Source: a virus
DNA length: 47,669 bases
Strand: one strand, 5' to 3'
Virus record (IMG/VR): IMGVR_UViG_3300045141_000134
Span: 1-47,669 of that record
Shown: one piece after another, positions 4,186-41,757 of the stretch
How the letters are laid out: every line of letters starts with the position of its first letter
Numbering within the stretch: the stretch's first letter is position 1
Translations under genes and position numbers: made by a program
Notes under the pieces: generated by a model
The model's input: the letters and a program-made list of their open reading frames with translations, nothing else
Told to the model about the DNA's origin: nothing
The model's database searches: none

Positions 4186-4653
4186 CTGACCGACGATCTT
4201 GGCGCGCTGTTCGAGCGCGCCGCCAGGCAGGCCCAACGCATCCTCGGTGATCGCTTCACCGCCGAGGACGTGGCCGCCGAAAGCGTCTCACGCATCATCG
4301 CAGGGAGCGACCCGGAACACTTGGGCCTCGTCGTGAACGGACTCGCCATCGACGAGTACCGGAGGCGGGGGAGAGAGATCCCCGCTGGTCTAGCTCGTGA
4401 CTTGGACGACCTGCTCGAGTACGACCAGCTTCCGCGGGTCATGCCTTTCACAGCCGACACGGACGAGTTCCGTACGGGGTTCGATCTCGCGCTGCGCGAC
4501 GTGCCTGACGACGAGCGTGACGCCTACATCCTCACCGATCTGCGCGGCCTCACCACGCGCGAAGCGTCCGGCGTGCTTGACACGTCGCACGTCACCGTCC
4601 ACCGCCGCGCAGAGGCCGCGCGGACATTCATTCGAGAGGGGCTGACGACTTGA
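4186..4653 (+). CDS. sigma-70-like transcription factor
   Basis: The 155-residue product resembles a small ECF-type sigma factor. The first half carries a degenerate region 2 (DRFTAEDVAAESVSRIIAGS with NGLAIDEYRRRGRE). The second half is a good region 4: LRDVPDDERDAYILTDLRGL, then TTREASGVLDTSHVTVHRRA, a helix-turn-helix that would read a -35 element. The start is CTG at 4186, placed five bases after AGGAGGAG; the first ATG (4270) would delete much of region 2. It is the first gene of the long replication operon, so it may redirect host RNA polymerase. The weak region 2 leaves open an anti-sigma or adaptor role. Confidence 0.7.
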   Translation: MTDDLGALFERAARQAQRILGDRFTAEDVAAESVSRIIAGSDPEHLGLVVNGLAIDEYRRRGREIPAGLARDLDDLLEYDQLPRVMPFTADTDEFRTGFDLALRDVPDDERDAYILTDLRGLTTREASGVLDTSHVTVHRRAEAARTFIREGLTT

Positions 4654-4952
4654 GCGATTTCAAGACAGGCGACCGCGTCCGCGTAGTCACGACCGACACG
4701 TACAACGGCAAAACGGGGACGATCAAGCAGTTCAGCAACGCCTACACCGCGTGTCTCGTGGCGCTCGACGGGGACGACTTCCCCGCGCGGTACTTCGACC
4801 TGGAAGAGTTGGTTCGCGACACGCCCGCGTTCATCAAGGTCGAGACGTACAAGTCGATCTGGCTCAGCTTCCCCGGCGAGAGCGTCGGGCGCAAGCTGTC
4901 CGTCGAGGACGCGACCACGCTGCTGCGGCAGCTAGACGAGGCGCTTTCTTGA
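4650..4952 (+). CDS. KOW-like small protein
   Basis: This 100-residue protein starts at TTG in a TTGA overlap with the sigma-like gene. Residues 4-50 (FKTGDRVRVVTTDTYNGKTG and onward) have the pattern of a KOW/SH3-like barrel, as in ribosomal L24 and NusG ends. The C-terminal half has a FIKVETYKSIWLSFPGES segment and an acidic tail. Direct coupling to a sigma-like factor hints at a role in transcription, but this is inference. Confidence 0.65.
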   Translation: MSDFKTGDRVRVVTTDTYNGKTGTIKQFSNAYTACLVALDGDDFPARYFDLEELVRDTPAFIKVETYKSIWLSFPGESVGRKLSVEDATTLLRQLDEALS

Positions 4953-5683
4953 AAATATGGGGCTACTACGCCTGGGGACTTCTAGGCGTAGCACTGACTC
5001 TCGCGTTGGTCTTTGGTACGGGGGCGACGTTCAAGTCCTCGTCGGTATCGAGCGCGCAGACGATCTATGTCCGCAACCTCTCCACGTACGTGTCCGACTC
5101 CGTCGTGAAGAACGACATCCCGGCCTTCCAGGCTGCGACCTCGCAGGACTTCGCGCCCATCTGGAAGGCGGACGCGAAGCTCGTGTTCATCGGCCAGGAC
5201 GCCGCGCCTCGCGGCGCAATCGTGATGACCCTGAAGGACAAGTCCGACGTGCAGAACGCCCTCGCCTATCACGAGATCACGGACGGCGTGCCCGACTCTC
5301 AGGTGTTCGTCGGAACGAGCCGGTACTTCAAGTACGACTGGACGGTGGGCTTCACCCACGAGCTGTGGGAGATGCTCGTCAACCCCGGTCTCACACGGCT
5401 GGACGAGAACACCGACGGGCTCGGCGGCAGGATCTGGTTCGGTGAAGTAGCCGACCCGGTCGAGGCCGACAAGCTCGGCTACACGCGCCCCGGTGCGAAC
5501 GGCGACCCCGTGCTCATCAGCGACTTCATCACCGAAAAGTGGTTCGGTGCCGACACCGCGGGACCCTTCGACTTCATGAACCACGTTCAGTCCCCCGGCG
5601 TCGTCCTGCCCGGCGGTTACGCGCAGTGGTGGGACGGCACGACCTGGGTCGTCATCAACCGCGGCCGTCGCGGGATCCTCTAG
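4949..5683 (+). CDS. membrane-anchored protein with a THELWE motif
   Basis: This 244-residue protein starts at TTG overlapping the previous stop. Residues 2-22 (KIWGYYAWGLLGVALTLALV) are a signal anchor, so most of the protein is outside the membrane. The middle has TVGFTHELWEMLVNPGLTRL. The His-Glu-x-x-Glu arrangement recalls metal-binding sites of a loosely described SHE-x-x-E protein group, but a classical HExxH is absent. The last part is Trp/Gly rich (PGGYAQWWDGTTWVVINRG). It could be an envelope-acting hydrolase or an exclusion protein; I cannot decide. It sits between regulatory and recombination genes. Confidence 0.7.
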   Translation: MKIWGYYAWGLLGVALTLALVFGTGATFKSSSVSSAQTIYVRNLSTYVSDSVVKNDIPAFQAATSQDFAPIWKADAKLVFIGQDAAPRGAIVMTLKDKSDVQNALAYHEITDGVPDSQVFVGTSRYFKYDWTVGFTHELWEMLVNPGLTRLDENTDGLGGRIWFGEVADPVEADKLGYTRPGANGDPVLISDFITEKWFGADTAGPFDFMNHVQSPGVVLPGGYAQWWDGTTWVVINRGRRGIL

Positions 5684-5773
5684 GTGAAGCTCGCGCTGTG
5701 CGTGTTCGCCGGGGCGGCTGCGGCCGTCACCGGCCTCACGTTCTGGGTCGCACGCAAGATCGAGTTGCTCTGA
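5684..5773 (+). CDS. 29-residue membrane peptide
   Basis: A GTG start follows the TAG of the previous gene directly. The product MKLALCVFAGAAAAVTGLTF then WVARKIELL is a single hydrophobic helix with basic flanks. Its stop overlaps the start of the exonuclease gene as CTGA. It lies beside another membrane-anchored protein and may assist it. Confidence 0.5.
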   Translation: MKLALCVFAGAAAAVTGLTFWVARKIELL

Positions 5774-6699
5774 CCGACCTATCGGCGCTCCTCTACGAGG
5801 AGCTACAGAGCGAACGTCGGCCCAACGACCACCTGCTCCATGCGTCCGCGCACCTGGAGGGCTCGCTGAGACACGCGCAGCTCGACGTTGCCGGCGCACC
5901 CAAGATCCACGAGTCCTTCGTCCGCGGGGTGCCGCTCTGGATCGGTTCGCTGATCCACGAGGACATCCACCGGATGCTCCGCAAGCGGGGCGTTCCGTAT
6001 CTGGCCGAGGTCGATGTGACCCCGTACCTCCCCGAGGGCTGGGCGGGCACGTTGGACGCGCTCATCTGGCAGCCCGAGGCCAAGGCGTTCGCCCTCGCGG
6101 ACTTCAAGACGACGAAGGGCGCAGCACTCCGCTACATCGAGGAGCGCGGGGCCAAGTCGGCGCACGTCCTCCAGACGAGCGCGTACTACTGGGCCGCGAA
6201 GAAGATGGGCCTGCCGTTGACGAAGGAGATCGGCGTGCTTTATGTGCCGAAGGACGAAGCTCGGGACGTGGAAGGTCCGCTGCTGGTCGAGTTCGAGCCG
6301 ACCCCGCAGAAGGAGCTGCACGCGGAGATGAAGGAGCGCCTGCGGCGCGTCAACGAGTACACGGCATCACTCGATCACTACACAAGCGGTCGGTACAGCG
6401 AGTACATCGGTGTCGTGGAGGATCCGCGGCGAATCATGGATCGCCTCGAAGGATGGATCACGGACGCGCTCGAGCCAGTGCAGGAACGCGAGCAGGTCGT
6501 GAAGTACGACCCGAAGACCGAGACGTGGGACGTGCTGCTCAAGCCCCACTGGTCTACCGCGTACTGCTCGTTCCCTGACGAGTTGTGCAACTGCCGTACG
6601 CAAGGCGTGACGAAGATCGGCACTTACGATGTCGATGGTGTGACGTACTACGCGCGTACAGGTTACGAAGATATTGCGCCGGTCGTAAGCCCGGCCTAA
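5770..6699 (+). CDS. Cas4/RecB-like PD-(D/E)XK exonuclease
   Basis: This 309-residue protein carries the PD-(D/E)XK nuclease core of the RecB/Cas4 group. An upstream motif I His lies in IGSLIHEDIHRML, the catalytic Asp in GWAGTLDALIWQPEAK, and motif III in FALADFKTTKGAA (Asp and Lys), followed by QTSAYYWAAKKMG as motif IV. A C-terminal cluster CSFPDELCNC may bind metal or an iron-sulfur cluster, as in Cas4. It would degrade DNA ends for recombination. The start is CTG in a CTGA overlap; no other plausible start precedes the conserved part. The annealing protein at 7491 is its likely partner. Confidence 0.8.
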   Translation: MTDLSALLYEELQSERRPNDHLLHASAHLEGSLRHAQLDVAGAPKIHESFVRGVPLWIGSLIHEDIHRMLRKRGVPYLAEVDVTPYLPEGWAGTLDALIWQPEAKAFALADFKTTKGAALRYIEERGAKSAHVLQTSAYYWAAKKMGLPLTKEIGVLYVPKDEARDVEGPLLVEFEPTPQKELHAEMKERLRRVNEYTASLDHYTSGRYSEYIGVVEDPRRIMDRLEGWITDALEPVQEREQVVKYDPKTETWDVLLKPHWSTAYCSFPDELCNCRTQGVTKIGTYDVDGVTYYARTGYEDIAPVVSPA

Positions 6700-7134: not shown

Positions 7135-7494
7135 CTGCGCGACAAGGCAGCGCACGCTGCGTACATGCGCGACTACCGACGACGCCGCGCAGCGGCCGGC
7201 AGGCCCGTGCGCGCGAACAACCAATGGTTCAACAGCATCAAACATCGCTACGGGATCACGCGCGAGGAGTACGACGCGCTGACTATTAAGCAAGGGGGTC
7301 TGTGTGCGATCTGCAAAGGAAGCGATCCCCGCCGCGGCAAGAGCACGCGGCTGTTCGTGGATCACGACCACGAGACCGGGCGTGTGCGGGGACTTCTGTG
7401 TCACAGGTGCAACGTTGCGCTCGGAGGATTCAGTGACGACATCGCGCGCCTACGCGCTGCGGCCAACTACCTAGAAGAAGGAGTAACCACTTGA
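7135..7494 (+). CDS. endonuclease VII-like HNH nuclease
   Basis: This 119-residue protein has the recombination endonuclease VII fold signature. A CAIC pair (QGGLCAICKGSDP) is followed by LFVDHDHETGRVRGLLC, the His-Asp-His catalytic loop, and CHRCNVALGGF, which completes the zinc site. Such enzymes cut branched DNA or act as homing nucleases. The start is CTG at 7135, six bases after AGGAGG. A later in-frame ATG at 7165 has no ribosome site. Its stop overlaps the next TTG. A second family member lies at 18835. Confidence 0.85.
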   Translation: MRDKAAHAAYMRDYRRRRAAAGRPVRANNQWFNSIKHRYGITREEYDALTIKQGGLCAICKGSDPRRGKSTRLFVDHDHETGRVRGLLCHRCNVALGGFSDDIARLRAAANYLEEGVTT

Positions 7495-8114
7495 CAGACG
7501 CTCTCGTAGAACTGCGGGTGCCTTTCCCCGCATCACAGGTTCGCAAGAATCAGAACAACCTGGATTACGTCGGGATTGAGGGTTACATCAACCGCTTCAT
7601 CGACGTGGTCGGTCTCGGCTACGACTTCCTCGTCACGCAGTCGAGCGTCACGCTCCTGCCAGAGGACATGACGACGAGCACCGGGAAGCGCCAGTACCTG
7701 GCGCAGGTGACCGGGCAGATTCGACTGCACGGTAGTCGGACGCCTAACAACGTGTCGCCGTCGTTCTCGCTTCCCGGCACGACCCGCTCAGGCACGGGGG
7801 CCGACGTTTCCTTCGACCCCGACAAGGCTGTGAAGACGGCGCAAGCCGAGGCGTTCAAGAAGGCTGCGCACCAGTTCGGTGTCGCGCTGGAACTGTGGGA
7901 CGAAGGGCACCGCGCAGACCTGGAGGTCGTGCGTCGTGGCGCTGGCGGCTCTGAGGCGGCGCTAAAGAAAGCAGTGTTCGACCTCGCCAAGAAGCGGCTC
8001 GACAAAGCCAAGCCCACAGTGGCCGATGTTGCGGAGCTGTTCAACGTCGCCCCCGGCGACTTGTCGTCCAAGTCCACGCTCGAGCAGATCCTCCGCACCG
8101 AGGGCGCGCTCTAA
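7491..8114 (+). CDS. Rad52-like single-strand annealing protein
   Basis: The 207-residue product matches the Rad52/22 pattern: an N-terminal LDYVGIEGYINRFIDVVGLG core, a beta sheet part (QYLAQVTGQIRLHGSRTP), and the hallmark DKAVKTAQAEAFKKAAHQFG then VALELWD. It would anneal complementary single strands during phage recombination, working with the exonuclease at 5770 and SSB at 15255. The C-terminal helical tail is variable. The start is TTG behind AAGGAG in a TTGA overlap. Confidence 0.8.
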   Translation: MTDALVELRVPFPASQVRKNQNNLDYVGIEGYINRFIDVVGLGYDFLVTQSSVTLLPEDMTTSTGKRQYLAQVTGQIRLHGSRTPNNVSPSFSLPGTTRSGTGADVSFDPDKAVKTAQAEAFKKAAHQFGVALELWDEGHRADLEVVRRGAGGSEAALKKAVFDLAKKRLDKAKPTVADVAELFNVAPGDLSSKSTLEQILRTEGAL

Positions 8115-9244
8115 TCCCGAGGCTGAATCGCTACAAGTGGCAGAGCTGGGCCGATCACATCGTCGCCACGTTCGACGAGGACAAGCCCGACATCGTCGCC
8201 ATCGACACGGAGACGACCGGCGTAGGCTTTTTCGATGAGCCTTTCGCCGCGACAATGACGTGGCGTCGGCCTGACGGGTCGCTCTTCAACGGCTACATCA
8301 GCCTCGACCCCGCGGACGAGTTCCTGCTCGGCGGCGTGAAGGAACAGAACATGCGCTGGCGCGGCCAGGTCGCGCTCCTGCACATCTTGAGCAAGACGCC
8401 GAAGTGGGTCTTCCACAACAGCAAGTTCGACCTACAAAAACTGAAGCTCATCAACGCGATCACCGATGGGATGCTCGACAAGATGGAGCTGCACGACACG
8501 CAGACCATCTACACGCTCATCGACGAGAACGGACGCAAAGGTTTGAAGCATCTCGCCGCAACCGTACTCAAGGTGGACGGCACCATCGAGGTCGAGATCA
8601 AGTCGGGGCCGAACAAGGGCACGTTCAAGCGCGTCCCCAAGGAGGAGCACGAGCTCGCCGCCGTCAGGCGGAAGCTTAAGATCAAGAAAGAGGACGGCTA
8701 CCACCTGCTGCCTCGCGAGATCCTCGTGCCGTACGCGCTCAAGGACACCGAATTCACCCTGCTCCTGTACGAGACCCTACTGCCCCGGCTCGAGCAGATC
8801 GGTGACCCGCGGCTCCTAGAGCTGTACCGCGAGTTCATGGAGTTGAAGCTGGCCTTGCTCGACATGGAGGCCGACGGCTTCGCCCTCGACCTGGACTACC
8901 TGTCCCGTGTCACGTCGGAGTACGGCGTGAAGGTGATGGAGGGCTGGGAGCGGATCGTGGATATGACGGGCAACCCGGACTTGAATCCACAGTCCCCCGC
9001 GCAGATCCTCCAAGCGTTCGCTGCCCGCGGGGTGACCTTGGAGTCCACGGCTGAGGCGACGTTGCGCGAGGTCGAAGACGACCTCGCCAAGGAGCTTCTC
9101 CAGTACCGCTCCGATAAGAAGATCCACACGACCTATCTGCACGCGCTTCAGGTGGAGCACCGCGACGGGATCGTGAACCCGAACTTCAACGATGACGCTG
9201 CGCGCACGGGACGCATGTCCTCTAGCGCGGCATCCAACAACTAG
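8114..9244 (+). CDS. family A DNA polymerase, N-terminal half (exonuclease and thumb)
   Basis: This part encodes about 376 residues. The 3'-5' exonuclease domain shows Exo I as IVAIDTETTG (Asp31, Glu33), Exo II as WVFHNSKFD and Exo III-like ALKDTEFTLLLYE. It then runs into the polymerase domain and stops in its first conserved block: ARTGRMSSS is followed by AASNN and TAG. The rest of the polymerase continues from about 10288. The start is most likely ATC at 8114, sharing its A with the upstream TAA (TAATC). ATG 8255 would remove Exo I. The stop itself forms the ribosome site (TAGGAGG) for the next gene. Confidence 0.85.
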   Translation: MPRLNRYKWQSWADHIVATFDEDKPDIVAIDTETTGVGFFDEPFAATMTWRRPDGSLFNGYISLDPADEFLLGGVKEQNMRWRGQVALLHILSKTPKWVFHNSKFDLQKLKLINAITDGMLDKMELHDTQTIYTLIDENGRKGLKHLAATVLKVDGTIEVEIKSGPNKGTFKRVPKEEHELAAVRRKLKIKKEDGYHLLPREILVPYALKDTEFTLLLYETLLPRLEQIGDPRLLELYREFMELKLALLDMEADGFALDLDYLSRVTSEYGVKVMEGWERIVDMTGNPDLNPQSPAQILQAFAARGVTLESTAEATLREVEDDLAKELLQYRSDKKIHTTYLHALQVEHRDGIVNPNFNDDAARTGRMSSSAASNN

Positions 9245-9252: not shown

Positions 9253-9441
9253 TTGCCCAAGCACAACAAGTTCGTGTGGGAGGACCTCGCGGACGCGACC
9301 GTCGGATTCGCGGCCTCCTTTGGTATCGAGTACGTGATCCTGCGCTACATCTTCCATGCGGGTCACGTATCCGTGCTCATCGCCTACGGGCTCGCGAGCA
9401 TCTACGGCCCCTTGCGCGCAATCAGGCGGCGAGTTAGCTGA
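9253..9441 (+). CDS. small membrane protein inside the polymerase insertion
   Basis: The 62-residue product starts at TTG after TAGGAGG. It has an amphipathic N-terminus and one or two membrane spans (TVGFAASFGIEYVILRYIF and VSVLIAYGLASIYG), then a basic end. It is the first gene of the insert that separates the polymerase halves. No family is recognised. Confidence 0.65.
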   Translation: MPKHNKFVWEDLADATVGFAASFGIEYVILRYIFHAGHVSVLIAYGLASIYGPLRAIRRRVS

Positions 9442-10061
9442 CCGAGTTCGCACAGGTCGTCCTGACGGACGATCAGGCCGTCCAGCTCGCACAGGCCATC
9501 GCGCTCGCCTTGTCCAACTCGACGGAAGACGAGATCGCGGGACATGAGGACGGGCTCAAGCAACTCGCCGTGTTCTTCGGGGCTGTTGCATCTGACCCGC
9601 AGCGGTTCCCCGTCACCGGGCGCATGGCGTCCAAGATCACGGAGGCACAGCGTCAGGCGAAGCAGCCGGCGCAGAAGCCGAAGCGGCTAAACGCACGGAA
9701 GCTCCGACAGGCTGCCCGTCAGGGCGGCGCTAAGCGCCGTCGTGCGGAGCGCAAGGAGAACGTCGAGAACTTCAACCAGGCGCAGCAGGCGTACGTCGCT
9801 GAGCTGGTCGAGATGCAGCAGATCCACCAGGAGAACGAGGCTCGAGCACAGGCTCTGATCGAGCAGGAGACGTTGACCCCCGCGGAGTTCGTGGAGGCGC
9901 TGACCCTGATCGGTGCGCCCGAGGCGATCCAGCACGCTGCGTCGAGAGTGCAGTCGGCACCCGAGGCCCCGACGCTTCTCCTGCCCGCCGGGGTCGAGAG
10001 TTCCGACCACGCCGACCTGATTCCGGCGCACGTTCGCTGGCCGGGCGGCGCACCTACGTGA
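9438..10061 (+). CDS. helical, basic hypothetical protein inside the polymerase insertion
   Basis: The 207-residue product starts at CTG in a CTGA overlap with the previous gene. The N-terminal part is a small alpha-helical domain. Residues 65-110 are very basic (RQAKQPAQKPKRLNARKLRQ, then KRRRAERKE), and a long Gln/Glu-rich coiled coil follows. The composition suggests a DNA- or RNA-binding structural protein. It shows no homing endonuclease motif (no HNH, GIY-YIG or LAGLIDADG), so the insert is not an obvious homing element. Confidence 0.6.
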   Translation: MTEFAQVVLTDDQAVQLAQAIALALSNSTEDEIAGHEDGLKQLAVFFGAVASDPQRFPVTGRMASKITEAQRQAKQPAQKPKRLNARKLRQAARQGGAKRRRAERKENVENFNQAQQAYVAELVEMQQIHQENEARAQALIEQETLTPAEFVEALTLIGAPEAIQHAASRVQSAPEAPTLLLPAGVESSDHADLIPAHVRWPGGAPT

Positions 10062-10396
10062 GGGTCTACGCGACCGAGCCGCCCTGGTCGGGTAGCTCAG
10101 AGTTCGGTAGTTGGAGACGAGGCCGTGACCTCTGGGATGGCTCGACGGAGTGGACGCTCGTTCCGTACTCACCCCGCGCCACGCTCACCGTGCTCTCGAA
10201 CATTCTCAAGAACCTGTACATGCCTTTGGTAGTCGAGCAACTGAACTCCGAGTTCCTCATCGAGGTAATGCCGGGAAGGGGGTTGCCATCAACTTCCAGA
10301 ACATCCCCCGCGATGACAAAGTGGTCAAGCGTGTGTTCGTTCCTAAGAGAGATATTTTCATCTTCGCGGACTACAAGCAGATCGAGCCGCGACTAA
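10058..10396 (+). pseudogene. chimeric frame with a major-capsid-like N-terminal fragment
   Basis: GTG overlaps the previous stop as GTGA. After about 37 unrecognised residues the frame reads RATLTVLSNILKNLYMPLVV and EQLNSEFLIEVMPG. This aligns with the N-terminus of this phage's own capsid protein (ATLTTLSNIMKNFYLGPIQS, QLNNEILVQQLLG) at roughly half identical residues. The similarity stops at about 10275, where the polymerase sequence resumes in another frame; the remaining frame to 10396 is noise. It appears to be a fragment of a foreign capsid gene left by illegitimate recombination, or part of a chimeric join. Confidence 0.6.
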
Positions 10397-11097
10397 CCGC
10401 GTACTTCGCGGAGAAGATCGGCTATCCCGAATTCGCGGATCAGATCCGCGCAGGGGTTGGGCCATACGAAGCAGTAGCCCGTCTTGCGACAGGCAAGCAG
10501 ACGTTGACCGAAGAGGAGCGGGACGTGTGGAAGCGTATCTTCCTCGGCATCCTCTACGGCGCAGGCGTCAAGCGTGTGAAAGAAGTCTGGTCTGAAGAGA
10601 CAGGCGAGATCATCACGATGACACAGGCGAAGAACATCGTGGACACGTTCAAGTCGAACTGGCCCGCGATTCCTGCGCTACAACAACGAGTCCAGCAGGC
10701 TGCCGCGAAACGCGGCTACATCCTGGGACTCGACGGTCGCCACCTTCACCTGGAAGAGAACGGCGAGCACAAGTTGCTCAACAAACTCATCCAAGGAAGC
10801 GCCGCCGGGATTATGAAGCGTGCGATTCTGAACGTGCATCGTCACCTTCGGGCAAATCCGAAGCTGAAGACGCGCATGGTCAGCGTCGTACATGACGAGT
10901 TGATCGGGGACGCTCCCGTCGCGGAAGTTCCGTACTTTGCGGAGCAGCTTCCACTTCTGATGCGGCAGGGTTTTGAGCACATCCACGATGTCGTCCCGAT
11001 TCTGGTGGATATTGAAATCTCGGCCGGAACATGGGCCGACAAAGTCAGCTACGACGAATGGGCTGAGACCCAACAGGAGGTTGCGCTTGTTTCGTAA
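10288..11097 (+). CDS. family A DNA polymerase, C-terminal half (palm and fingers)
   Basis: About 269 residues complete the polymerase. NFQNIPRDDK continues the TGRMSSS block left at 9244. Motif A is FADYKQIEPRLTAYFA, motif B RDVWKRIFLGILYGAG and motif C VVHDEL, so all catalytic aspartates are present. The frame is open upstream to 10150 but has no ATG, GTG or TTG near the true beginning. ATC at 10288 lies five bases after AAGGGGG and matches the ATC start of the other half, so separate translation as a two-part polymerase is possible. The alternative is a broken gene. Confidence 0.8.
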   Translation: MNFQNIPRDDKVVKRVFVPKRDIFIFADYKQIEPRLTAYFAEKIGYPEFADQIRAGVGPYEAVARLATGKQTLTEEERDVWKRIFLGILYGAGVKRVKEVWSEETGEIITMTQAKNIVDTFKSNWPAIPALQQRVQQAAAKRGYILGLDGRHLHLEENGEHKLLNKLIQGSAAGIMKRAILNVHRHLRANPKLKTRMVSVVHDELIGDAPVAEVPYFAEQLPLLMRQGFEHIHDVVPILVDIEISAGTWADKVSYDEWAETQQEVALVS

Positions 11098-11281
11098 GAA
11101 GTCTGTGACCATCAAAGTCACGTTCCGAGATCCGCGGAGCCTGAATCCCCCGAACGGATTCAGTGCGGACGATTTCCTGGGCGCGGTGTTTGACGGCGCA
11201 ACCGCCGCCGCTCTGGACGCGGGAAAGCGGTACGACGTTCCCGTGCTCGGGATCACGCGCGAGCGGAGTGCGTACTCCTGA
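11087..11281 (+). CDS. small hypothetical protein
   Basis: The 64-residue product starts at TTG, six bases after AGGAGG, and overlaps the polymerase end by 11 bases. An N-terminal basic beta segment (FRKKSVTIKVTFRDPRS) precedes a helical part (DDFLGAVFDGATAAALDAGK). No family is recognised. Its stop overlaps the next start as CTGA. Confidence 0.65.
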   Translation: MFRKKSVTIKVTFRDPRSLNPPNGFSADDFLGAVFDGATAAALDAGKRYDVPVLGITRERSAYS

Positions 11282-11703
11282 GCGACTTCACGATCCGCGA
11301 CAGCGGAGCGCGCGAACAGTTCGACAGTGGGATGGTGAGGGATACCGAAGACGACAAGCTCGACTACACGCTCGTCCTCGATGGCCCCATGTTCAAGCGT
11401 TGGGCAGCGCACCTGACCAAGGGTGCGAAGAAGTACGCCCCCCGGAACTGGATGAAGGCTTCGGGCGAGGAAGAGCTGGCCCGGTTCAGGCGCAGCTTCC
11501 TACGCCATGCTGTTGCGTGGCTCGACGGTGAGACCGACGAGGACCACGCTGCGGCGATCATCTTCAACGTCAACGGCGTCGAGTACGTCCGAGCGCAGCA
11601 GGCGGAAACGGAAGAGCCGATCCCGTACTGGGAGGGGTTCGATCCCGACTGCACGCTCTGTCAGCGCGTCATCTACCACCAGGCACATGTCTGCGAGGGT
11701 TGA
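11278..11703 (+). CDS. dATP/dGTP diphosphohydrolase-like protein (DUF5664 type)
   Basis: The 141-residue protein resembles the all-alpha phage dATP/dGTP pyrophosphohydrolase family, related to MazG-like enzymes. Diagnostic parts are RDSGAREQFDSGMVRDT, then FKRWAAHLTKGAKKYAPRNW and RRSFLRHAVAWLDGETDEDH, whose Glu and Asp residues would hold magnesium. It would trim deoxynucleotide pools. The start is CTG in a CTGA overlap; a start at the internal ATG would cut the conserved first motif. A C-terminal CTLCQRVIYHQAHVC looks like a small metal site. Confidence 0.75.
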   Translation: MSDFTIRDSGAREQFDSGMVRDTEDDKLDYTLVLDGPMFKRWAAHLTKGAKKYAPRNWMKASGEEELARFRRSFLRHAVAWLDGETDEDHAAAIIFNVNGVEYVRAQQAETEEPIPYWEGFDPDCTLCQRVIYHQAHVCEG

Positions 11704-12139
11704 GGGCGACACCGCCGTCCACACCGCGATCATCGACTGGGATGGCACCGCTGTTCCGAGTGTGTGGCCCGAGCACGCAACCGAGTTCATGCCCGGCTTC
11801 GTAGCGAACATGCGCCGGCTGCACGCCGCGGGGATCCGCCTCACGATCTTCTCAGCTCGACTGTCGCCGTGGGATCCCTGGACGAGTACGCGCCGTGACC
11901 CCGGACATGTCGCAACCGAAGTCCAGTACGTCCGCGCGATGCTCGACAACGCAGGACTCACGTTCATCGACATCTGGACCAAAGAAGGCAAGCCCGGCGG
12001 CTCGGTCTACGTGGACGACAAGGCCGAGCGGTACGGCGGCAACCGCCGAAGCTGGGACATCGTGACCGACAAGATCCTCATGCGTCTAGGCAAAGAGGAC
12101 GCCCAGTTCCCAGCGTTTCGACAGGAGGTACAAGCCTGA
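11687..12139 (+). CDS. HAD-superfamily phosphatase
   Basis: The 150-residue product has HAD motif I as IIDWDGTAVPS (nucleophile Asp), motif II as LTIFSARLS, and motif IV as SVYVDDKAERYGG. The small cap-less form resembles phage deoxyribonucleotidases or the phosphatase part of polynucleotide kinases. Its place after a dNTP hydrolase suggests nucleotide metabolism. The ATG at 11687 lies inside the previous gene. Confidence 0.75.
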   Translation: MSARVEGDTAVHTAIIDWDGTAVPSVWPEHATEFMPGFVANMRRLHAAGIRLTIFSARLSPWDPWTSTRRDPGHVATEVQYVRAMLDNAGLTFIDIWTKEGKPGGSVYVDDKAERYGGNRRSWDIVTDKILMRLGKEDAQFPAFRQEVQA

Positions 12140-12255
12140 GACCCGCAACTCGGGTTGGCAACTGCGTCCTGTTTCCGGGAGGCGGTTATCGACCGTTGAC
12201 GCGCCGAGAGCGCGTCCGTCTGTTCTTCAACCACGCAGCACGGATCCGGCCATGA
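12136..12255 (+). CDS. 39-residue basic protein with CTG start
   Basis: CTG follows AGGAGGT by six bases and overlaps the previous stop as CTGA. The frame runs 39 codons to a TGA that overlaps the next ATG (ATGA). The peptide contains RPATRVGNCVLFPGGGYRPL and a basic helical end. Both flanking overlaps and the strong ribosome site support a real gene that standard start rules miss. Function unknown. Confidence 0.6.
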   Translation: MRPATRVGNCVLFPGGGYRPLTRRERVRLFFNHAARIRP

Positions 12256-14856: not shown

Positions 14857-15262
14857 GACCTGGAAGCGCGTCGAGCGAGAGAAGTGCCGCGAGCTCGGCG
14901 GGGAACGCTCTGGGCCTACCGGACGTGACACGCCCGATTGCGACGACAGCGTCCACGTCGGCCTAGAGGTCAAGAGTTACAAGACCTTCGTGTTCTTGAC
15001 GAAGGACTGGGAGCAGGCCGTGGACAACGCGGCGAAGATCGGGAAGCCCCCGGTGCTCGCAGTAAAAGAGCGCGGCCACAACGGCCGCGACATGGTGCAG
15101 ATCACGCAGGCGTACTTCACGATCCTGGCGGATTGCGCCGACCTCGGGCCGACCGCGTGGTACACGCTCGTGCGCGGGCAGTTTGTGCGCCTGCCCTGGG
15201 AAGACTTTGTGCGGCTTTACAGAGCCGCCTACATCAACGAGAAGGAGAACTCCACTGGCTGA
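14846..15262 (+). CDS. Holliday junction resolvase-like / VRR-NUC-type nuclease
   Basis: The 138-residue protein looks like a small PD-(D/E)XK nuclease. It has an N-terminal ERE-x-CRELGGERSGPTGRD, a DCDDSV acidic turn and the catalytic-looking GLEVKSYKTFVFLTKDW (Glu and Lys), followed by QAVDNAAKIGKPPVLAVKER. This matches phage proteins annotated as putative Holliday junction resolvases. It would cut branched recombination or replication products before packaging. It is placed just before SSB, whose CTG start lies within its last codons. Confidence 0.65.
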   Translation: MGDKTWKRVEREKCRELGGERSGPTGRDTPDCDDSVHVGLEVKSYKTFVFLTKDWEQAVDNAAKIGKPPVLAVKERGHNGRDMVQITQAYFTILADCADLGPTAWYTLVRGQFVRLPWEDFVRLYRAAYINEKENSTG

Positions 15263-15620
15263 GGCTCAGTACCGCGCCGTGTTCGGCATGATCCAGTTCG
15301 ATCCCCGTGAGGGAAATGCCGGCGGCAAGGACGTACGCAACATCACGATTCGCACGACGGGCATGAAGGAGCAGTCGATCAAGGTCGGCGCAACCCTCTG
15401 GCCGTCGCACGCACACATCCCCGTCGCCAAGGGCGACCTCGTCTGGATGGAGGGCAAGTTCTCCCAGACGCAGGGTGAGAACAACGGCGCGCCGGTCACG
15501 TACAACAACCTGTCCGTCTCGGCCATCAAGAACTTCGGTCAGGCAGACTCGGGTAGGCGCGAAGAGGACACGGCGAGCAGCGCCGCTGCCGACATCCCCG
15601 ACGACGACATTCCCTTCTAG
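15255..15620 (+). CDS. ssb: single-stranded DNA-binding protein
   Basis: The 121-residue product has an OB-fold pattern and the SSB hallmark acidic end (AAADIPDDDIPF) that recruits partner enzymes. The N-terminal part AEAQYRAVFGMIQFDPREG corresponds to strand 1. The start is CTG at 15255, about seven bases after AAGGAGA; an upstream GTG at 15183 would add 24 residues unlike any SSB. This is one of the clearest CTG starts here. It would support the recombination pair and the polymerase. Confidence 0.8.
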   Translation: MAEAQYRAVFGMIQFDPREGNAGGKDVRNITIRTTGMKEQSIKVGATLWPSHAHIPVAKGDLVWMEGKFSQTQGENNGAPVTYNNLSVSAIKNFGQADSGRREEDTASSAAADIPDDDIPF

Positions 15621-15622: not shown

Positions 15623-15838
15623 GTGGCCTTCGACAGGTTCAATGTCGGATACGGCGCTCGCGTGTCGGCCGAGTTCGGTCTGGACAAGTGGGATAGCGCC
15701 TATGTCACCGTGCGCACGGAGGGCAACAACACCTGGCAGTTGCAGATGACCGCGGATCGAGCACGGGATCTGTCGCGCCAGTTGAAGCGCGCAGCCGACC
15801 TCATTGACCCGCCGAAGAAGCGAGTCGTGAAGGTCTGA
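15623..15838 (+). CDS. small hypothetical protein
   Basis: The 71-residue product starts at GTG two bases after the SSB stop. Its predicted beta-rich first half (WDSAYVTVRTEGNNTWQLQM) and a helix with a basic end (RDLSRQLKRAADLIDPPKKR) give no recognised family. It is coupled to SSB and may act with single-stranded DNA. Confidence 0.65.
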   Translation: MAFDRFNVGYGARVSAEFGLDKWDSAYVTVRTEGNNTWQLQMTADRARDLSRQLKRAADLIDPPKKRVVKV

Positions 15839-15843
15839 CGAAC

Positions 15844-16170
15844 ATGAACGCGGCCGTCGCGGAATACCGCGAGGCCGTTGAGGCCCTGGCACTGCGGATT
15901 AGTCGCAGTGCTGGGGCCATTCGCGTTGGGGCAGAGTTCGACGACCTTGCGCAGGAGGGATTGATCCAAGTTTGGCAGTCCCTTGGGCGTGGCGTCACCC
16001 CCGCGGCACGCATCATCGAGCTACGGATGATCGACTACATTCGGTGGCTCGGCACGCAGATCGGCCACGGTCGTGTCTGCACCGAGGAGAACCCGGACGA
16101 CTGTCCGAAGCACGTCTCATATGACACGCTGCTTCCGCTGGACGATTTCCGTGTCGCGGAGTCGCGCTAG
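15844..16170 (+). CDS. sigma-70 region 2-like protein (first part of a split sigma factor)
   Basis: The 108-residue product carries sigma region 2: FDDLAQEGLIQVWQSLGRGV (core-polymerase contact helix) followed by RIIELRMIDYIRWLGTQ (-10 reading helix). The frame ends in TAG at 16168-16170. Region 4 follows in the +1 frame, beginning only a few codons later. ATG at 15844 has GAAGG upstream; a CTG at 15835 in a CTGA overlap is an alternative start. See the next entry for the second half. Confidence 0.7.
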   Translation: MNAAVAEYREAVEALALRISRSAGAIRVGAEFDDLAQEGLIQVWQSLGRGVTPAARIIELRMIDYIRWLGTQIGHGRVCTEENPDDCPKHVSYDTLLPLDDFRVAESR

Positions 16171-16195: not shown

Positions 16196-16459
16196 TTGGT
16201 CGAGCACTACGAGTTGCTGCGCGAGCTGTCCGACACGGACGGCCGCGGACTCGGATGGCTCGCCTTGCGGACAGACCTCGACGCAGTCCTGGCACAGATC
16301 CCCGAGCAGTACTGGGTGGTGATTCTGCTGCACGGGCTCATCGGGTTCTCGCAGGCAGAGACCGCTCAACTCCTTCGGGTGTCGCAGCAGGCTGTGTCGA
16401 AGCGTTACCGACACGGCCTTGAGGAACTGCACTACTGGATCAACGGAGGTACGGACTGA
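16196..16459 (+). CDS. sigma-70 region 4-like protein (second part of a split sigma factor)
   Basis: About 87 residues, with a clear region 4: LAQIPEQYWVVILLHGLIGF, then SQAETAQLLRVSQQAVSKRY, a helix-turn-helix for the -35 element. The frame is open from 16073, overlapping the first half. TTG at 16196 lies nine bases after a GAGGAGGAG, so independent translation is possible. A +1 shift at CGC-TAG-C (16165-16171) would fuse both halves into one sigma factor. The two cannot be told apart by reading alone. Confidence 0.65.
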   Translation: MVEHYELLRELSDTDGRGLGWLALRTDLDAVLAQIPEQYWVVILLHGLIGFSQAETAQLLRVSQQAVSKRYRHGLEELHYWINGGTD

Positions 16460-16635
16460 GCACACGAAAGTTCGACCCAGATGTGTACGGGGCCTTGCAC
16501 GAGCAGGGCCTGTCGAATCGTCAGATCGCTGCGAAGCTCGACGTGAACGAAAGCTCGGTTCGTCGGGGGCTGAAGGCGTACAAGCCGCTGCCCATAGGGC
16601 GGCGCTTCCTTGTCACTGTGGTCGAGGTTGACTAG
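16456..16635 (+). CDS. small helix-turn-helix protein with CTG start
   Basis: CTG lies five bases after GGAGGT and overlaps the sigma stop as CTGA. The 59-residue product has a typical HTH: YGALHEQGLSNRQIAAKLDV followed by NESSVRRGLKAYK. It resembles small resolvase- or sigma-region-4-like helices that bind DNA. It is invisible if only ATG, GTG and TTG starts are allowed. It may modulate the sigma factor encoded just upstream. Confidence 0.65.
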   Translation: MSTRKFDPDVYGALHEQGLSNRQIAAKLDVNESSVRRGLKAYKPLPIGRRFLVTVVEVD

Positions 16636-16801
16636 CGCCGAAGTACACGCGCGGTACAACCAGAGCGCGAAGGGCCGCGCACGACAAGCGCGGTACCGGA
16701 GCACTGAGAAGGGCCGCGCTAACGAGCGGCGAGTGCATGGCCGCCTTCGCTTCAGCGAGCGCGCAGCCCGTATCAAACAAGCAGAGGAGTTGTTGACATA
16801 G
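16628..16801 (+). CDS. small basic repeat protein
   Basis: The 57-residue product starts at TTG, overlapping the HTH gene. It is rich in Arg and Lys and carries two related units, YNQSAKGRARQARYR and STEKGRANERRVHGR. Such (S-x-KGRAR) units recur in small phage proteins presumed to bind nucleic acid. Its stop TAG overlaps an ATA start (ATAG). Confidence 0.55.
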   Translation: MTSAEVHARYNQSAKGRARQARYRSTEKGRANERRVHGRLRFSERAARIKQAEELLT

Positions 16802-28897: not shown

Positions 28898-29596
28898 CTA
28901 TGCCTTCGTGATCTTGATGTAGCCGGGCAGCTTCGTACCAGCACCGCCAGCACCAGCCAGCGCGACGAAGTTTGTTGCCGAGCTCTCCCAGATTCGGATG
29001 TTGTAAGTGTGCGAACCCGCGGACGGAGTGAGCCGACGCTTCAATGCTCCGAGTTGGTCCGAAGTTGAAGCAACCACGGTGCCGTCATAGAGGCGGCCAA
29101 GGTCGGTTGCGACATCCCACAGGTTGATGCCGTGCGTCGCGCTCGAACCGCCATGCACGTATCCAGGAGAGAAGAACTCGATGTCTACCGCTGTACCGTC
29201 AAAGGTGACCGCCCCGGCAGATACGACCAACGTTGCGGCGGCCTCTGCAACGGTGTTGGCTGAGACGCTCGCCGTGAACTCGACGTAAGCGAGCGTAGTG
29301 CCGGGCGGCTGCACTGCGACTGCGCCCGCTCCCAGCGATCCGATGACCTTCCCGGAACCAGGATCGGTGAGAGAGTTGAGGCCGATCTGCGTAGCACTCG
29401 AGCGAACCCAGGTCGAGCCGTTCCATACAGGAACCTCACCAGTGACAATGCCGGAAGGCTTGCCCACTCGCGCTGCGATGAGCGTGTCGAGCGTGTCCAT
29501 CTGCGCGTTAGACCCGAGACCGGAGGGCGCATCTACGGACGTGTTGAACTTCGGGATACCAAGCGGGGTCGGAGAACCCGTAGCGTCAGTGGCGAT
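28898..29596 (-). CDS. tail fibre-like protein with ATC start
   Basis: The 232-residue product ends in a beta-rich domain typical of fibres and tail spikes (VDIEFFSPGYVHGGSSATHG and SHTYNIRIWESSATNFVAL). The N-terminal ATDATGSPTPLGIPKFNTSV and MDTLDTLIAARVG resemble the usual fibre attachment segment. The only start that keeps this segment is ATC at 29596, six bases after AAAGGAGG. ATG at 29500 would remove it and has no ribosome site. It is one of the cleanest examples of a non-NTG start here. Confidence 0.7.
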   Translation of the reverse strand: MATDATGSPTPLGIPKFNTSVDAPSGLGSNAQMDTLDTLIAARVGKPSGIVTGEVPVWNGSTWVRSSATQIGLNSLTDPGSGKVIGSLGAGAVAVQPPGTTLAYVEFTASVSANTVAEAAATLVVSAGAVTFDGTAVDIEFFSPGYVHGGSSATHGINLWDVATDLGRLYDGTVVASTSDQLGALKRRLTPSAGSHTYNIRIWESSATNFVALAGAGGAGTKLPGYIKITKA

Positions 29597-32393: not shown

Positions 32394-33044
32394 TTAGATA
32401 GGCCAGTACTCGTCGTCGAAGTCATCGGGATCAACCACATGCACGTACTCGGGCTCGTCGTGCTGCTTCGCCATGAGTGCGTCTTCCATCTGCGCGAGCA
32501 CGTTCTCGTAGTGCGCCTCGAACCGCGCCGACAGCGCGGAGTCGTCGTCGAGGTCGTACAAACGCATGAGCGCGCGGAAGACGATGGCCTCGTGATAGTC
32601 GGCGGGAAGTAGGAAGGCCGACTCAGCGTCGGATGCTCCGACGTTCGGGACCATCTGTATGTACCGCTGACGCAGCGTCTGCGTCGAGGGCGGCACGGGC
32701 CAGAAGTTGAGCGTGTTGCCGACGAAGTAGTAGAGCTTCGGCGTGCCCGCTAGCGTGATCTGCGAGGCGTGCTTCTCCTCGAAGTCGTCGGTACGCCGGA
32801 AGTGGATGCGCTTGCCTGTCGTCGTGTCCATGATCTTCTTCACCGCGCGAAGATCGGTCGCTGCGTTCGACGGTGTTGCGTTCACGCCGTCGAAGGTGAG
32901 CGTCAGGAGCTTCTCGAGGAACGGCCAGTTGTTCCGGTAGCAGATGTTCTTGTGCGACTGATTGATCGCACGCAACTGCGCCGTCTGACCAAGATCCGAG
33001 AAGCCGTGATCATTGAGCTCGGTGATGATGTCTTGAGGGGTGAT
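32394..33044 (-). CDS. head-to-tail adaptor protein with ATC start
   Basis: The 216-residue product fits the podovirus adaptor role. The N-terminal TPQDIITELNDHGFSDLGQT, then QLRAINQSHKNICYRNNWPF and a later WPVPPSTQTLRQRYIQMVP region match head-tail connectors. The start that keeps the first helix is ATC at 33044, two bases after the upstream TAG; TTG 32975 would cut 23 residues. The acidic C-terminus (VVDPDDFDDEYWPI) would lie outside the ring. Confidence 0.7.
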   Translation of the reverse strand: MTPQDIITELNDHGFSDLGQTAQLRAINQSHKNICYRNNWPFLEKLLTLTFDGVNATPSNAATDLRAVKKIMDTTTGKRIHFRRTDDFEEKHASQITLAGTPKLYYFVGNTLNFWPVPPSTQTLRQRYIQMVPNVGASDAESAFLLPADYHEAIVFRALMRLYDLDDDSALSARFEAHYENVLAQMEDALMAKQHDEPEYVHVVDPDDFDDEYWPI

Positions 33045-33046
33045 GG

Positions 33047-35608: not shown

Positions 35609-36646
35609 TTAGCCGATGGTTGTGATGCCGGACTCGTGTGCGTACGCGAGCGCGCCCTTGAGCGCCTCGTCGAGGTCCACGAGCGGCTCGGTCTGCGTAG
35701 AGATCGCAGACGAACCGTCAACCGGCGCAACACCGCTGGGTGCCTGCTTCGTGTTCAGGTACCGATCCAGGAGTGCGTTACCAATTTCCTTGTAACGCTG
35801 CTCTGCCTGGAGCAAGTTCCCGTCGAAGAAAGCTGACAGCTCGTACACGGCGTCGATGTCGCCCTGCTGATAGCCAGGGTTGGACTGTCGAATCGCCATC
35901 TCCTGCCGCTGAAGCTCTCCTGCGAGAGCCATCTGCTGATAGGCGAGCTGCTCGGACTCGAGCCTCGTGTTCCGTTCCGCCTCGAACGAATCGAGACGAG
36001 CCTGGAGCTGCGAGACCTGCGTGCCCTGTTCGATCAGCGGTGCCAGATCCGGGTATTCCTGGGCGAGCTTCGCGAGCTGATCAGTCAGCCCCTGTCCCTG
36101 CGGTGTGACGGCCTGCTCGATCTGCTGGGCTGCTGCCGCCGATGCCTGCACCGGGGTGTAGCCCTGTTGTTCGAGTGCCTTCGTGAGTTCCGCATGGAAC
36201 TGCGTAAGCGCCTGGGGATCCTGGAGGGTGCGATAGAGCTCGACAGCCTGTGTGACCGAGTTGAGGTCACCGAACTGCTCGAACTGCTGCCGCTGCGCTG
36301 CCACTTCCTGCGTCTTGCGGGTGTACGCAGCCTGAAGCTGCTTCCATCCGTCCTGAAGCTCTGGTGCCAGCGTGTCGGGGTTGAACTGTCCGCCGTCGAA
36401 GGTATCCGCGGCAGGATCGGGAGGAGTGGTCGGATCGACGGCGGGAGTCTGCGCGACGAAGCGACCCATCGGGTCACGGTCCTGGCTGGGCTGTACCGGC
36501 GTGGCGGGGGTTTCCCCCTGGGGAGTCACGGGAGCGAGCGGGGCCTGCTCGACGGGAGTTACAGGTGCCGGCGCGTCGGTGCCGCCGTCAGACTGAATCG
36601 CACCTTCGAGTGCCGCGGTTGCGTCCGCGAGTGACATTTCAGAAAT
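35609..36646 (-). CDS. scaffold protein, probable ATT start
   Basis: The 345-residue product is acidic, Gln-rich and helical, as scaffolds are: a Pro/Thr-rich N-terminal half, then coiled coils (QLQARLDSFEAERNTRLESE) and an acidic helical end. It directly precedes the capsid gene in the late direction. AAGGAG lies eight bases before ATT at 36646, whereas ATG at 36637 is 17 bases away. ATT gives a product beginning SEMSLADATAALEGA. Confidence 0.75.
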   Translation of the reverse strand: MSEMSLADATAALEGAIQSDGGTDAPAPVTPVEQAPLAPVTPQGETPATPVQPSQDRDPMGRFVAQTPAVDPTTPPDPAADTFDGGQFNPDTLAPELQDGWKQLQAAYTRKTQEVAAQRQQFEQFGDLNSVTQAVELYRTLQDPQALTQFHAELTKALEQQGYTPVQASAAAAQQIEQAVTPQGQGLTDQLAKLAQEYPDLAPLIEQGTQVSQLQARLDSFEAERNTRLESEQLAYQQMALAGELQRQEMAIRQSNPGYQQGDIDAVYELSAFFDGNLLQAEQRYKEIGNALLDRYLNTKQAPSGVAPVDGSSAISTQTEPLVDLDEALKGALAYAHESGITTIG

Positions 36647-36690
36647 GGTTGGTTCTCCTTCGTCAGAAGAGTTCCCGAGGGACTGCTCTT

Positions 36691-37170
36691 CTATTTAGGA
36701 GCGGGAAGTGCGAGCACTTCCGCATCCACGATTTCGTATTCGCGATTCCGGGCGAGTTCACGTCCGGCTTCAACGAAGCCCTGCATCAGTTCGCGGATCT
36801 CGTCCGCGCCCGGCAGGTGGTGCTCGTGTGAGACCTTGTCGGTCAAGCCACGAGCACGGTCGATCTTGTCGGTCAAAATGCCGACAGTGACGTTCAGTTC
36901 GCTGATCTTCGTGGACTCCGGGATCAGTGTCTCGATCCTGCGGAGCGCCAGGTTGCGGACGCGCGAGGCGTCGTCAACGAACTCCCCCGCCGCAACCTCT
37001 ACGAGTTCGGTGTTGGGGGGTTTCTCGAGAAACTCGTCGCGCCAGCGACGAACGGTGTTCTCCGGTACGCCGGTCTCACGACTGGTGCGTTTGACGTTGC
37101 CGTCATTCGCGCGGAGAACGACGTACACGCGAGCCTTGTCGGTCTCGGTGTACGTCGCTCTACCTGTCAT
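36691..37170 (-). CDS. HTH protein, possible small terminase subunit
   Basis: The 159-residue product has an N-terminal helix-turn-helix: GNVKRTSRETGVPENTVRRW preceded by a helix. A helical oligomerisation region (ISELNVTVGILTDKIDRARG) follows. This matches small terminase subunits, which bind pac/cos DNA; it lies between portal and scaffold, away from the large subunit. A transcriptional regulator is the alternative. ATG follows the portal's TAG. Confidence 0.65.
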   Translation of the reverse strand: MTGRATYTETDKARVYVVLRANDGNVKRTSRETGVPENTVRRWRDEFLEKPPNTELVEVAAGEFVDDASRVRNLALRRIETLIPESTKISELNVTVGILTDKIDRARGLTDKVSHEHHLPGADEIRELMQGFVEAGRELARNREYEIVDAEVLALPAPK

Positions 37171-40009: not shown

Positions 40010-40013
40010 CGAG

Positions 40014-40202
40014 TTACCGCGGTCCTACGGTGATGACGCCCGCCGTGACGGTGACAATGTGCTGCGTCGTAAACGCTGCGTCCATCAGGTCATCGAGTTG
40101 TCGATGGCTGAGGTTCCCGGTGATGGTCGCGACCGCCCCCGAGACCGAGCTCGTCGTGTTGAGCGAGTTCAGCTTCTGCTGGATCTGTGCGTGCAAAGCC
40201 AT
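40014..40202 (-). CDS. small late protein
   Basis: The 62-residue product starts at ATG behind AGGAGG; a longer frame upstream has no ribosome site. It contains ALHAQIQQKLNSLNTTSSVS, then a hydrophobic Thr/Val-rich end (TTQHIVTVTAGVITVGPR). No family is recognised. Confidence 0.6.
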   Translation of the reverse strand: MALHAQIQQKLNSLNTTSSVSGAVATITGNLSHRQLDDLMDAAFTTQHIVTVTAGVITVGPR

Positions 40203-40215
40203 ACGGCCTCCTTCG

Positions 40216-41757
40216 TTATGCGTCGGCCCCGAGTTCGGGGTCGTAGGGGCGCTGCTTGCCGCCCGCCTGAAGGACGTGATCCCAGGCTTGGCCTTGCAGC
40301 GAGTCATCGCGACGGATCTCTCCGAACAACGATGCGTCAGGTCGAATCGGAAGAAGCACACTCGCCGCCCCGAGCGCGATCTCTACCGCGTCGAGAAGGT
40401 CGTCGTGCTGGTTCTTCTTGGAGGGGTCGTAGGAGACCCACTGGTCGATGAAGTCGGAGTGCTTCTTGTTGATGCGGATCTTGCCGGTCTTGAACAGCGG
40501 ACCCATGCCGAGGATGCGGTCTTCCTTCTTGCCCTTCGACATGACGCCGACGATGTTCGGCAGGCCCTCCATGCGAGAGGTCATCTGCACGAGCGCACGC
40601 TGGTAGGCGTTCGCCTCGATGCCGATGAGTTGCGGCCGGTACTTGAGGAACCACTCGCGGATTTTGTCGAGCTGATCCGGGAAGGGGATCTTCTCGACGT
40701 AGTACTCCAACAGGAAGACCTGCGGCTGCGTGCGGTCCTTCGTCAGGCCGATGAGCGCCATCGCGAACGAGTCGGCGGCATCGGCCAGGGAGATCGCGGG
40801 GTCAACCCCGATGTAGAGGTCGAGTGCGAGCTTGCCGTCGCGGTCCTTCGGCAGTCCGAGATCCTCGGTCTGCACGTCGGGATTGCCGATGACGTAGTAC
40901 TTAAGCCAGTCGCCCTGGAGCGCCACGCCGGCCATCGCGTCGAAGGCCGCCATGAACTCCTGACGGAACATGATCGGGTGGTAGTTCTCGAGCGCGTACT
41001 CCCACATCTTGCGAGGGAAGTACGGGTTGTCGATGCTCGTGTACTCGACCCGGAACTGGCGCTCGTCCTCGAGCGCCTTGCCTGCGAAGAACATCTCCCA
41101 GAACCAGTTTTTGCCGTTCGGGGTCGTCGTCGTGATGACGATGCCCTCGCGGTCGGTGAGCGCCGGGAAGACAACATCCCATGCTTCCTTGTTCGGGATG
41201 AAGGCGGACTCGTCGATCCAGAGGATGTCGAGCCCCGCGCCGCGCAGCGACTGCGGATCGTCAGCCGAGCGGAACTCGACGACGCTGAGCAGTTCCTCAC
41301 CGGGGCCGTAGAACTCGAAGATGCCCTGGCTGCGGTTGTAGCGGTAGTCGCGGTCCTTGACGAGGCCGACGGCGCGGATGACCTCGAGGAAGGTGCTGAG
41401 GCTCGGGCGTCCCACGCGGTAGTCCTTCGCGAGTGCCCAGATCCAGAGCGGCCGTTGACTCTCCGTGCCGTGCGCATCCCGGTGGAACTCCTGCGGATGC
41501 AGCGCGTAGAAGAGAACCTCCCACGCAGCGGAGAGCGTCTTGCCTCCGCGTCGTCCGGCGACTAGATGCCGGAAGGGAGTGATGTTGCCGTCGAGCAGCG
41601 CACCGTGGAACAGCGACTGCCAGATGTGCGGGCTGTACTTGTTTTTCAGGAACCAGTAGAACTTGACCGGCTGGGCCTCGACCAGTGCGCCGAGATGGGC
41701 GTCGGTGAGTGCGTCTGCACGGTCATGGCCGCCCGCGGTCAGCGAGCGGAAGTTCAG
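40216..41757 (-). CDS. large terminase subunit with CTG start
   Basis: The 513-residue product is a terminase ATPase-nuclease. Walker A is HLVAGRRGGKTLSAAW, Walker B LDILWIDESAFI, with a coupling TTTTPNGKNWFWEMF motif. The RNase H-like nuclease has LYIGVDPAISLADAADSF and NQHDDLLDAVEIALG. It drives DNA into the head. CTG at 41757 lies seven bases after AGGAGG; the longer frame to 41838 overlaps the upstream gene and looks unlike a terminase. This is the strongest late CTG start. Confidence 0.85.
   Translation of the reverse strand: MNFRSLTAGGHDRADALTDAHLGALVEAQPVKFYWFLKNKYSPHIWQSLFHGALLDGNITPFRHLVAGRRGGKTLSAAWEVLFYALHPQEFHRDAHGTESQRPLWIWALAKDYRVGRPSLSTFLEVIRAVGLVKDRDYRYNRSQGIFEFYGPGEELLSVVEFRSADDPQSLRGAGLDILWIDESAFIPNKEAWDVVFPALTDREGIVITTTTPNGKNWFWEMFFAGKALEDERQFRVEYTSIDNPYFPRKMWEYALENYHPIMFRQEFMAAFDAMAGVALQGDWLKYYVIGNPDVQTEDLGLPKDRDGKLALDLYIGVDPAISLADAADSFAMALIGLTKDRTQPQVFLLEYYVEKIPFPDQLDKIREWFLKYRPQLIGIEANAYQRALVQMTSRMEGLPNIVGVMSKGKKEDRILGMGPLFKTGKIRINKKHSDFIDQWVSYDPSKKNQHDDLLDAVEIALGAASVLLPIRPDASLFGEIRRDDSLQGQAWDHVLQAGGKQRPYDPELGADA

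Follow-up and report, generated by a model that had tools for sequence, protein, structure and literature searches.

Can a soil phage open a large share of its genes at codons other than ATG, GTG and TTG? The question is raised by the IMG/VR virus record IMGVR_UViG_3300045141_000134, which I analysed at its full length of 47,669 nucleotides (positions 1 to 47,669, hereafter the window). The known cases of non-standard starts concern single genes, and a first-pass annotation of the window claimed that CTG, ATC, ATA and ATT serve systematically as start codons in it. The codons that it listed are all present, and eleven of these sites, together with an ATC start at 26643 that it had missed, are well supported, giving 12 CTG, ATC, ATT or ATA starts among roughly 60 genes, a total estimated from open reading frame (ORF) calls without curation. 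Among the other listed sites, two (4186 and 7135) are carried by their Shine-Dalgarno (SD) sequences and by the stops that box them in, and three (5770, 12136 and 15835) are weak. The explanation that I favour, with moderate confidence, is initiation driven by the SD at near-cognate codons, in a host that is permissive and probably an actinobacterium, combined with control of the dose of a scaffold-type protein.

Start codons in the window

Relatives were taken from IMG/VR, and in each homologue the codon opposite residue 1 was read by projection. A start was called well supported when a start codon stood at the aligned homologue column and/or when no ATG, GTG or TTG occurred back to the upstream in-frame stop. 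Canonical codons occupy 55 of the 99 projected start columns but only 665 of 4362 columns (15%) projected from internal CTG/ATN codons of the same genes; Fisher's p of about 1e-19 for this difference overstates it, because the homologues are non-independent and a third of the 99 belong to the adaptor gene. In 9 of the 13 genes with projectable homologues, the exact column is canonical in at least one relative. This comparison of N-termini upholds much of what the first-pass annotation had proposed. Furthermore, 12 of the 17 sites examined are boxed in, since reading back from the proposed codon one meets an in-frame stop before any ATG, GTG or TTG, and the SD score of the proposed codon exceeds that of the next in-frame ATG, GTG or TTG at 16 of the 17, the exception being 15835. 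The score is above 4.5 at 9/17 sites and at least 3.6 at 14/17; the SD is not strong at a few sites, 9438 among them, and start assignment from a single genome leans partly on SD strength. Every odd start is a neighbour of ATG by one base, at codon position 1 or 3. Identical odd codons also recur in independent phages (ATT in five scaffold genes, ATA twice and ATC in two fibre genes), and because they are common to phages from different metagenomes, sequencing or assembly errors are an unlikely source of them.

Seven of the well-supported starts lie on the plus strand. The N-terminal part of DNA polymerase A (8114..9244) starts at ATC, and the aligned column holds TTG in the relative G003 and ATG in G008; no ATG, GTG or TTG occurs back to the stop 162 nt upstream, and the next in-frame one would cost 47 amino acids. 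The C-terminal part of the polymerase, a separate gene (10288..11097), starts at an ATC within the motif xNxQNIPR, aligned with GTG in G008 and G029 and with ATG in G003 and L086. I considered whether 10288 could instead be an intron junction and rejected this, as relatives start a separate gene there with ATG or GTG and no Rfam intron family matches. A protein without assigned function (9438..10061) begins at a CTG immediately after a stop codon, its column being GTG in G003. A phrog_18716-like protein (11278..11703) has a CTG start with no upstream alternative; its CTG-AGC aligns with TTG-AGC in G003, given a one-residue gap, and the start in G008 is ATG. The SSB-like protein at 15255..15620, a name from the first-pass annotation for which Pfam and PHROG searches returned no match, starts at CTG after AAGGAG, aligned with TTG in G012 and with a TTG one codon off in G003. 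A small helix-turn-helix protein (16456..16635) starts at CTG after GGAGG, with CTG in G003/G006, ATG in G008 and TTG in G012. Finally, a protein without assigned function (16798..17034) starts at ATA, as does its homologue in G012, there with GGAGG; ATG, GTG and TTG are absent upstream to the stop, and the next in-frame one would cost 56 amino acids.

The remaining well-supported starts lie on the minus strand. The newly found ATC at 26643 opens a late structural protein (24241..26643) after GAGGGGGT; its counterpart in G012 is TTG after GAGAGGGGGT, and the alternative ATG at 26670 scores poorly for SD. A fibre-type protein (28898..29596), likewise named in the first-pass annotation and without a match in the PHROG search, starts at ATC 29596 after AAAGGAGGG, with a stop 18 nt upstream; the aligned column is ATG in G003/G006 and L036, TTG in G012 and ATC in G010. 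The adaptor or tail-connector-like protein (32394..33044) starts at ATC 33044, with no alternative within 168 nt upstream, and its projected column is ATG, GTG or TTG in 31/33 homologues. The scaffold-type protein (35609..36646), whose product is assigned from synteny and so is probably a scaffold, starts at ATT 36646 after AAGGAG and lies directly upstream of the major capsid gene. The large terminase (40216..41757) starts at CTG 41757 after AGGAGG, a column that holds CTG, ATG, TTG or GTG in relatives.

The other five sites are all CTG codons on the plus strand. A sigma-70/ECF-like protein with a sigma region 4 match (4186..4653) has its CTG at good spacing from GAGGAGGAG, with no ATG, GTG or TTG back to the stop, and an endonuclease VII with an Endonuclease_7 match (7135..7494) has TAGGAGG at ideal spacing, an in-frame stop 12 nt upstream and no upstream alternative; N-terminal homologues were found for neither. 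The CTG of an exonuclease-like gene (5770..6699) is weak, having just a CTGA overlap with a small upstream ORF, and GTG 5698 is a possible start. Also weak are the CTG of a 39-amino-acid orphan ORF (12136..12255), with an ideal SD and no homologue found, and that of a sigma region 2 protein (15835..16170), where an ATG three codons on (15844) scores 3.6 for SD against 2.8 for the CTG and is also present in relatives. That odd starts hide genes from standard callers is a plausible suggestion in the case of 16456 and 16798, each matched by homologues that begin at the same place, while 12136 has only its SD to speak for it.

The scaffold gene and its leader

Are odd starts spread evenly over related phages and genes? 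In twelve structural families, read under a conservative rule, 17 of about 192 starts in high-GC phages are clearly non-canonical, and none of the 65 in the low-GC sisters is convincingly so. The terminase starts at CTG in G001, where an in-frame stop closely precedes it, and in L035 and L045, and contexts read by eye add CTG in L058 and L062 and ATT in L059. For the terminase, adaptor and fibre, the start switches between ATG, GTG, TTG and odd codons across relatives, with no odd codon kept throughout, whereas weak starts are mostly kept in the scaffold gene of the high-GC phages. Two effects can therefore be read from the sequences, one a general tolerance of odd starts and the other a bias of the scaffold gene in particular towards weak ones.

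The scaffold-type gene is readable in about 60 phages, and its high-GC starts were assigned by eye from the position of the SD and the printed context. The low-GC phages (43-51% G+C) have ATG in every readable case. In the high-GC phages it is ATT in the window, G012, G002/G010, G009 and L046; CTG in G001, L033, L036, L037/L048, L039, L045 and L050; TTG in G003/G004/G006, G005, G008, G011, L040, L041, L043, L049, L060 and L064/L065; and ATG in a minority. The weak starts TTG, CTG and ATT thus open 21/27 high-GC scaffold genes; in these phages the capsid, portal and g36691 genes start mostly with ATG and GTG. On the portal tree, the scaffold start requires at least 15 changes among ATG, TTG, CTG and ATT, and GTG is never seen. 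A scaffold start at the ATG three codons on was rejected on its SD spacing and because the upstream Ser-Glu codons are conserved with synonymous changes, and L045 and L033 do not have that ATG.

Just before the scaffold SD the window carries a covarying RNA hairpin (36664..36693, minus strand) of the form stem-CAR-stem-loop-stem-A-stem, with an asymmetric internal loop (CAR/A) and usually one site per genome. The strict pattern occurs in 41/60 scaffold leaders and in 22/1200 (1.8%) random windows from the same contigs. In 24 sequences, 96.9% of cells are paired and 7/8 pairs vary on both sides; shuffled sequences never reach this pairing and sliding the partner destroys it. These sequences were mostly picked by pattern match, which inflates the count, and the random windows give the fairer comparison. 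The covariance model derived from the hairpins finds 15 sites at E <=0.01 in 52 loci, one per locus, and those compared with the scaffold start fall within its leader; weaker matches, for example L005 7268 and L027 4916, are probably due to chance. Neither the five unrelated phages nor Jasmine, Shocker, DS1 and ctEqG8 contain a match to the model, and no Rfam family matches the hairpin convincingly. My guess is that the hairpin is a translational operator of the scaffold gene; it may instead be a processing site or another protein-binding site. The persistence of weak scaffold starts through many changes, with a covarying hairpin by the SD, points to translational control of capsid assembly.

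Mechanism, host and rival explanations

How might such starts work? The SD sequence would position the ribosome, and the ordinary fMet-tRNA would initiate despite a single mismatch, at the first or third base of the codon. Near-cognate starts (CTG, ATC, ATT and ATA) would thereby serve about a fifth of this phage's genes and, in its high-GC relatives, a lower proportion. A host more tolerant than E. coli, probably a soil actinobacterium, would allow start codons to drift among seven codons, and the scaffold gene would be held on weak starts (TTG, CTG and ATT), most likely setting its dose relative to the capsid protein. The combination of SD sequences with codons one base off ATG fits fMet-tRNA acting at near-cognate codons. 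Neither an altered code nor an initiator tRNA supplied by the phage fits the window, where tRNA-Thr is the only tRNA called, the element at 241-330 shows no CAT anticodon and no IF3 domain was found (IF3 being initiation factor 3). A relaxed choice of starts by the host was one of the two causes named in the first-pass annotation; near-cognate codons, good SDs at most of them and occurrence throughout the clade make it the best reading, though one short of proof. A bolder version, which I offer tentatively, is that a bacterial lineage accepts seven start codons (ATG, GTG, TTG, CTG, ATT, ATC and ATA) usefully, that the phage clade uses all of them, and that the scaffold gene sits on weak starts behind a conserved RNA operator for particle stoichiometry.

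The results on a permissive actinobacterial host and on scaffold dosage control point both ways. In favour of such a host, the cultured phages closest by capsid protein infect Arthrobacter, Microbacterium and Cellulosimicrobium, but this probable link to actinobacteria rests on 27-29% identity. A terminase profile search found one cellular contig, L031 (JADLBJ010000156.1), in a metagenome-assembled genome (MAG) of Dehalococcoidia (Chloroflexota), which is possibly a hint of the host or possibly mis-binning. The capsid protein was not found in 399 other Chloroflexota genomes, and tRNA-Thr identity in Chloroflexota genomes is at most 82-86%. The scaffold start of L031 is ATG, and its MAG has two matches to the C-terminal part of IF3. 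Support for actinobacterial tolerance comes from the Streptomyces genes infC and sigR, described below, and from SD-led reporters in M. smegmatis, where ATT initiates robustly and ATC weakly, but CTG fails as a start at 0.03% (PMC4633059); because of this failure, known actinobacteria do not explain CTG starts. CTG is the commonest odd start here, and this is where the likeness to the mycobacterial reporters ends. The low-GC phages have the scaffold hairpin yet start with ATG, so that hairpin and weak start are separable. Finally, a test on coding potential only, which counts genes without ATG, GTG or TTG near the 5' end, gave 15/368 in the clade, 7/155 in unrelated phages and 0/185 in the low-GC sisters, and thus does not place the high-GC clade above five unrelated high-GC phages.

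This last result favours drift only, in which near-cognate starts with a strong SD work at modest efficiency in every bacterium, gene callers hide the fact in all phages, and nothing sets this host or this phage apart. An SD-anchored test found 25/180 genes in the clade against 6/83 and 4/48 in controls, but several hits on both sides were false when inspected, and it counts as supportive only; the four candidates in unrelated phages, of which one or two are plausible, again lean towards drift. An expectation-maximisation over 61 start codons placed ATG, TTG and GTG on top with CTG and ATT enriched, but it is contaminated by ACC/AAC second codons and I do not use it as evidence. Drift alone sits poorly with the low-GC sisters, where the same pipeline gave nothing convincing, with the instability of CUG complexes on E. 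coli ribosomes (PMC11497404), and with the scaffold bias, which is unlike random drift. Thus I regard it as rather unlikely.

Could the odd starts instead be regulatory throughout, each gene being kept low or under IF3 control? The persistence of weak scaffold starts across many independent changes would suit this, and there is precedent. In Streptomyces, sigR combines a strong SD with a very weak start, GTC behind AGGAGGTG, which limits the dose of SigR relative to its partner via IF3, and infC begins at ATC; in both E. coli and Streptomyces, infC opens at a near-cognate AT(T/C) preceded by an SD, and IF3 discriminates such starts (PMC5472188). These precedents differ from the phage in that GTC is not seen here, and sigR is a single regulator gene for which IF3 dependence was shown. 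Likewise, infC is one autoregulated host housekeeping gene per genome, whereas here a dozen phage genes are involved and are mostly not conserved as non-standard. The switching of terminase, adaptor and fibre between standard and odd codons argues against regulation throughout, which I consider improbable; for the scaffold gene, dosage control is part of the favoured explanation.

A phage-encoded factor, either a special initiator tRNA or an initiation factor that permits odd starts during infection, is less probable again. The first-pass annotation had pointed to a tRNA-like element at 241-330 (plus strand), and this element, a tRNA-Thr and many proteins without known function leave some room for the idea. 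The element is degenerate, with a T arm, an acceptor and a long variable arm and no clear anticodon arm; standard ARAGORN and Rfam scans call no tRNA there, and relaxed ARAGORN gives an intron-bearing form with the anticodon ACA. The CAT anticodon is not present in it, and I rejected it as an initiator tRNA. It is also barely conserved among relatives, with a 35-nt partial match in G001 and little else. The only tRNA called in the window is tRNA-Thr(TGT), and no IF3 domain was found there, so that this part of the earlier proposal is not supported.

That most of the proposed starts are wrong, with standard codons used further in or out, or are assembly errors is the least credible possibility, for although it is true or possible at 5770, 12136 and 15835, it is contradicted elsewhere by stops in frame, by the starts of aligned homologues and by odd codons that recur unchanged across metagenomes.

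Near-cognate initiation in a permissive host would also set this phage apart from other departures from standard translation. Like stop-reassigned phages, it defeats standard gene calling, but its elongation code looks standard (no suppressor tRNA was called in the window, and long ORFs read under table 11), no reassigned codon is needed, and initiation alone differs. Deinococcus deserti is reported to have several non-canonical start codons in one genome and reportedly also uses leaderless mRNAs, whereas clear SDs precede most starts here. At most sites an SD, or an overlap with the gene upstream, speaks against leaderless initiation, as read from DNA with transcript ends unmapped. The packaging motor and the capsid scaffold are among the essential morphogenesis genes with odd starts, and the pattern recurs through the clade. 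The rule that bacterial starts are ATG, GTG, TTG and rarely others would therefore fail for this phage-host system, and callers limited to ATG, GTG and TTG would truncate, extend or lose such proteins, with effects on metagenomic protein catalogues. Start-codon fidelity in uncultured soil bacteria also becomes testable, and the relatives offer a natural set of aligned start-codon swaps for gauging selection on initiation.

Genome and identity of the phage

The window has 63% G+C and identical terminal direct repeats of 127 bp (1-127 and 47543-47669), which make it most likely that the record is a complete circular genome with a length of 47,542 bp. Among its products are a large terminase (phrog_2), a portal (phrog_156) and a major head protein (phrog_14242), as well as a tyrosine integrase (19991-20854) divergent from an adjoining complete tRNA-Thr (20995-21068). 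DNA polymerase A is split into two genes (8114-11097, plus strand) at the QNIPR motif, with small genes between them; the break point is identical in G003, G008 and G029, and the spacers differ. Terminase, portal and head genes, an integrase beside tRNA-Thr and a split DNA polymerase A therefore indicate a temperate tailed phage.

The pairing of integrase and tRNA-Thr is also found in G003, G006 and G012, there with tRNA-Thr(CGT). Other cargo includes an ArdA antirestriction protein (46116-46622, plus strand; Pfam PF07275, E 1e-40) and an FAD/NAD-dependent oxidoreductase (994-2178, plus strand), an unusual phage cargo with a relative in G003. Finally, L038, L040, L042 and L055 carry 17-26 tRNA genes ahead of the terminase, and the phage of the window carries one.

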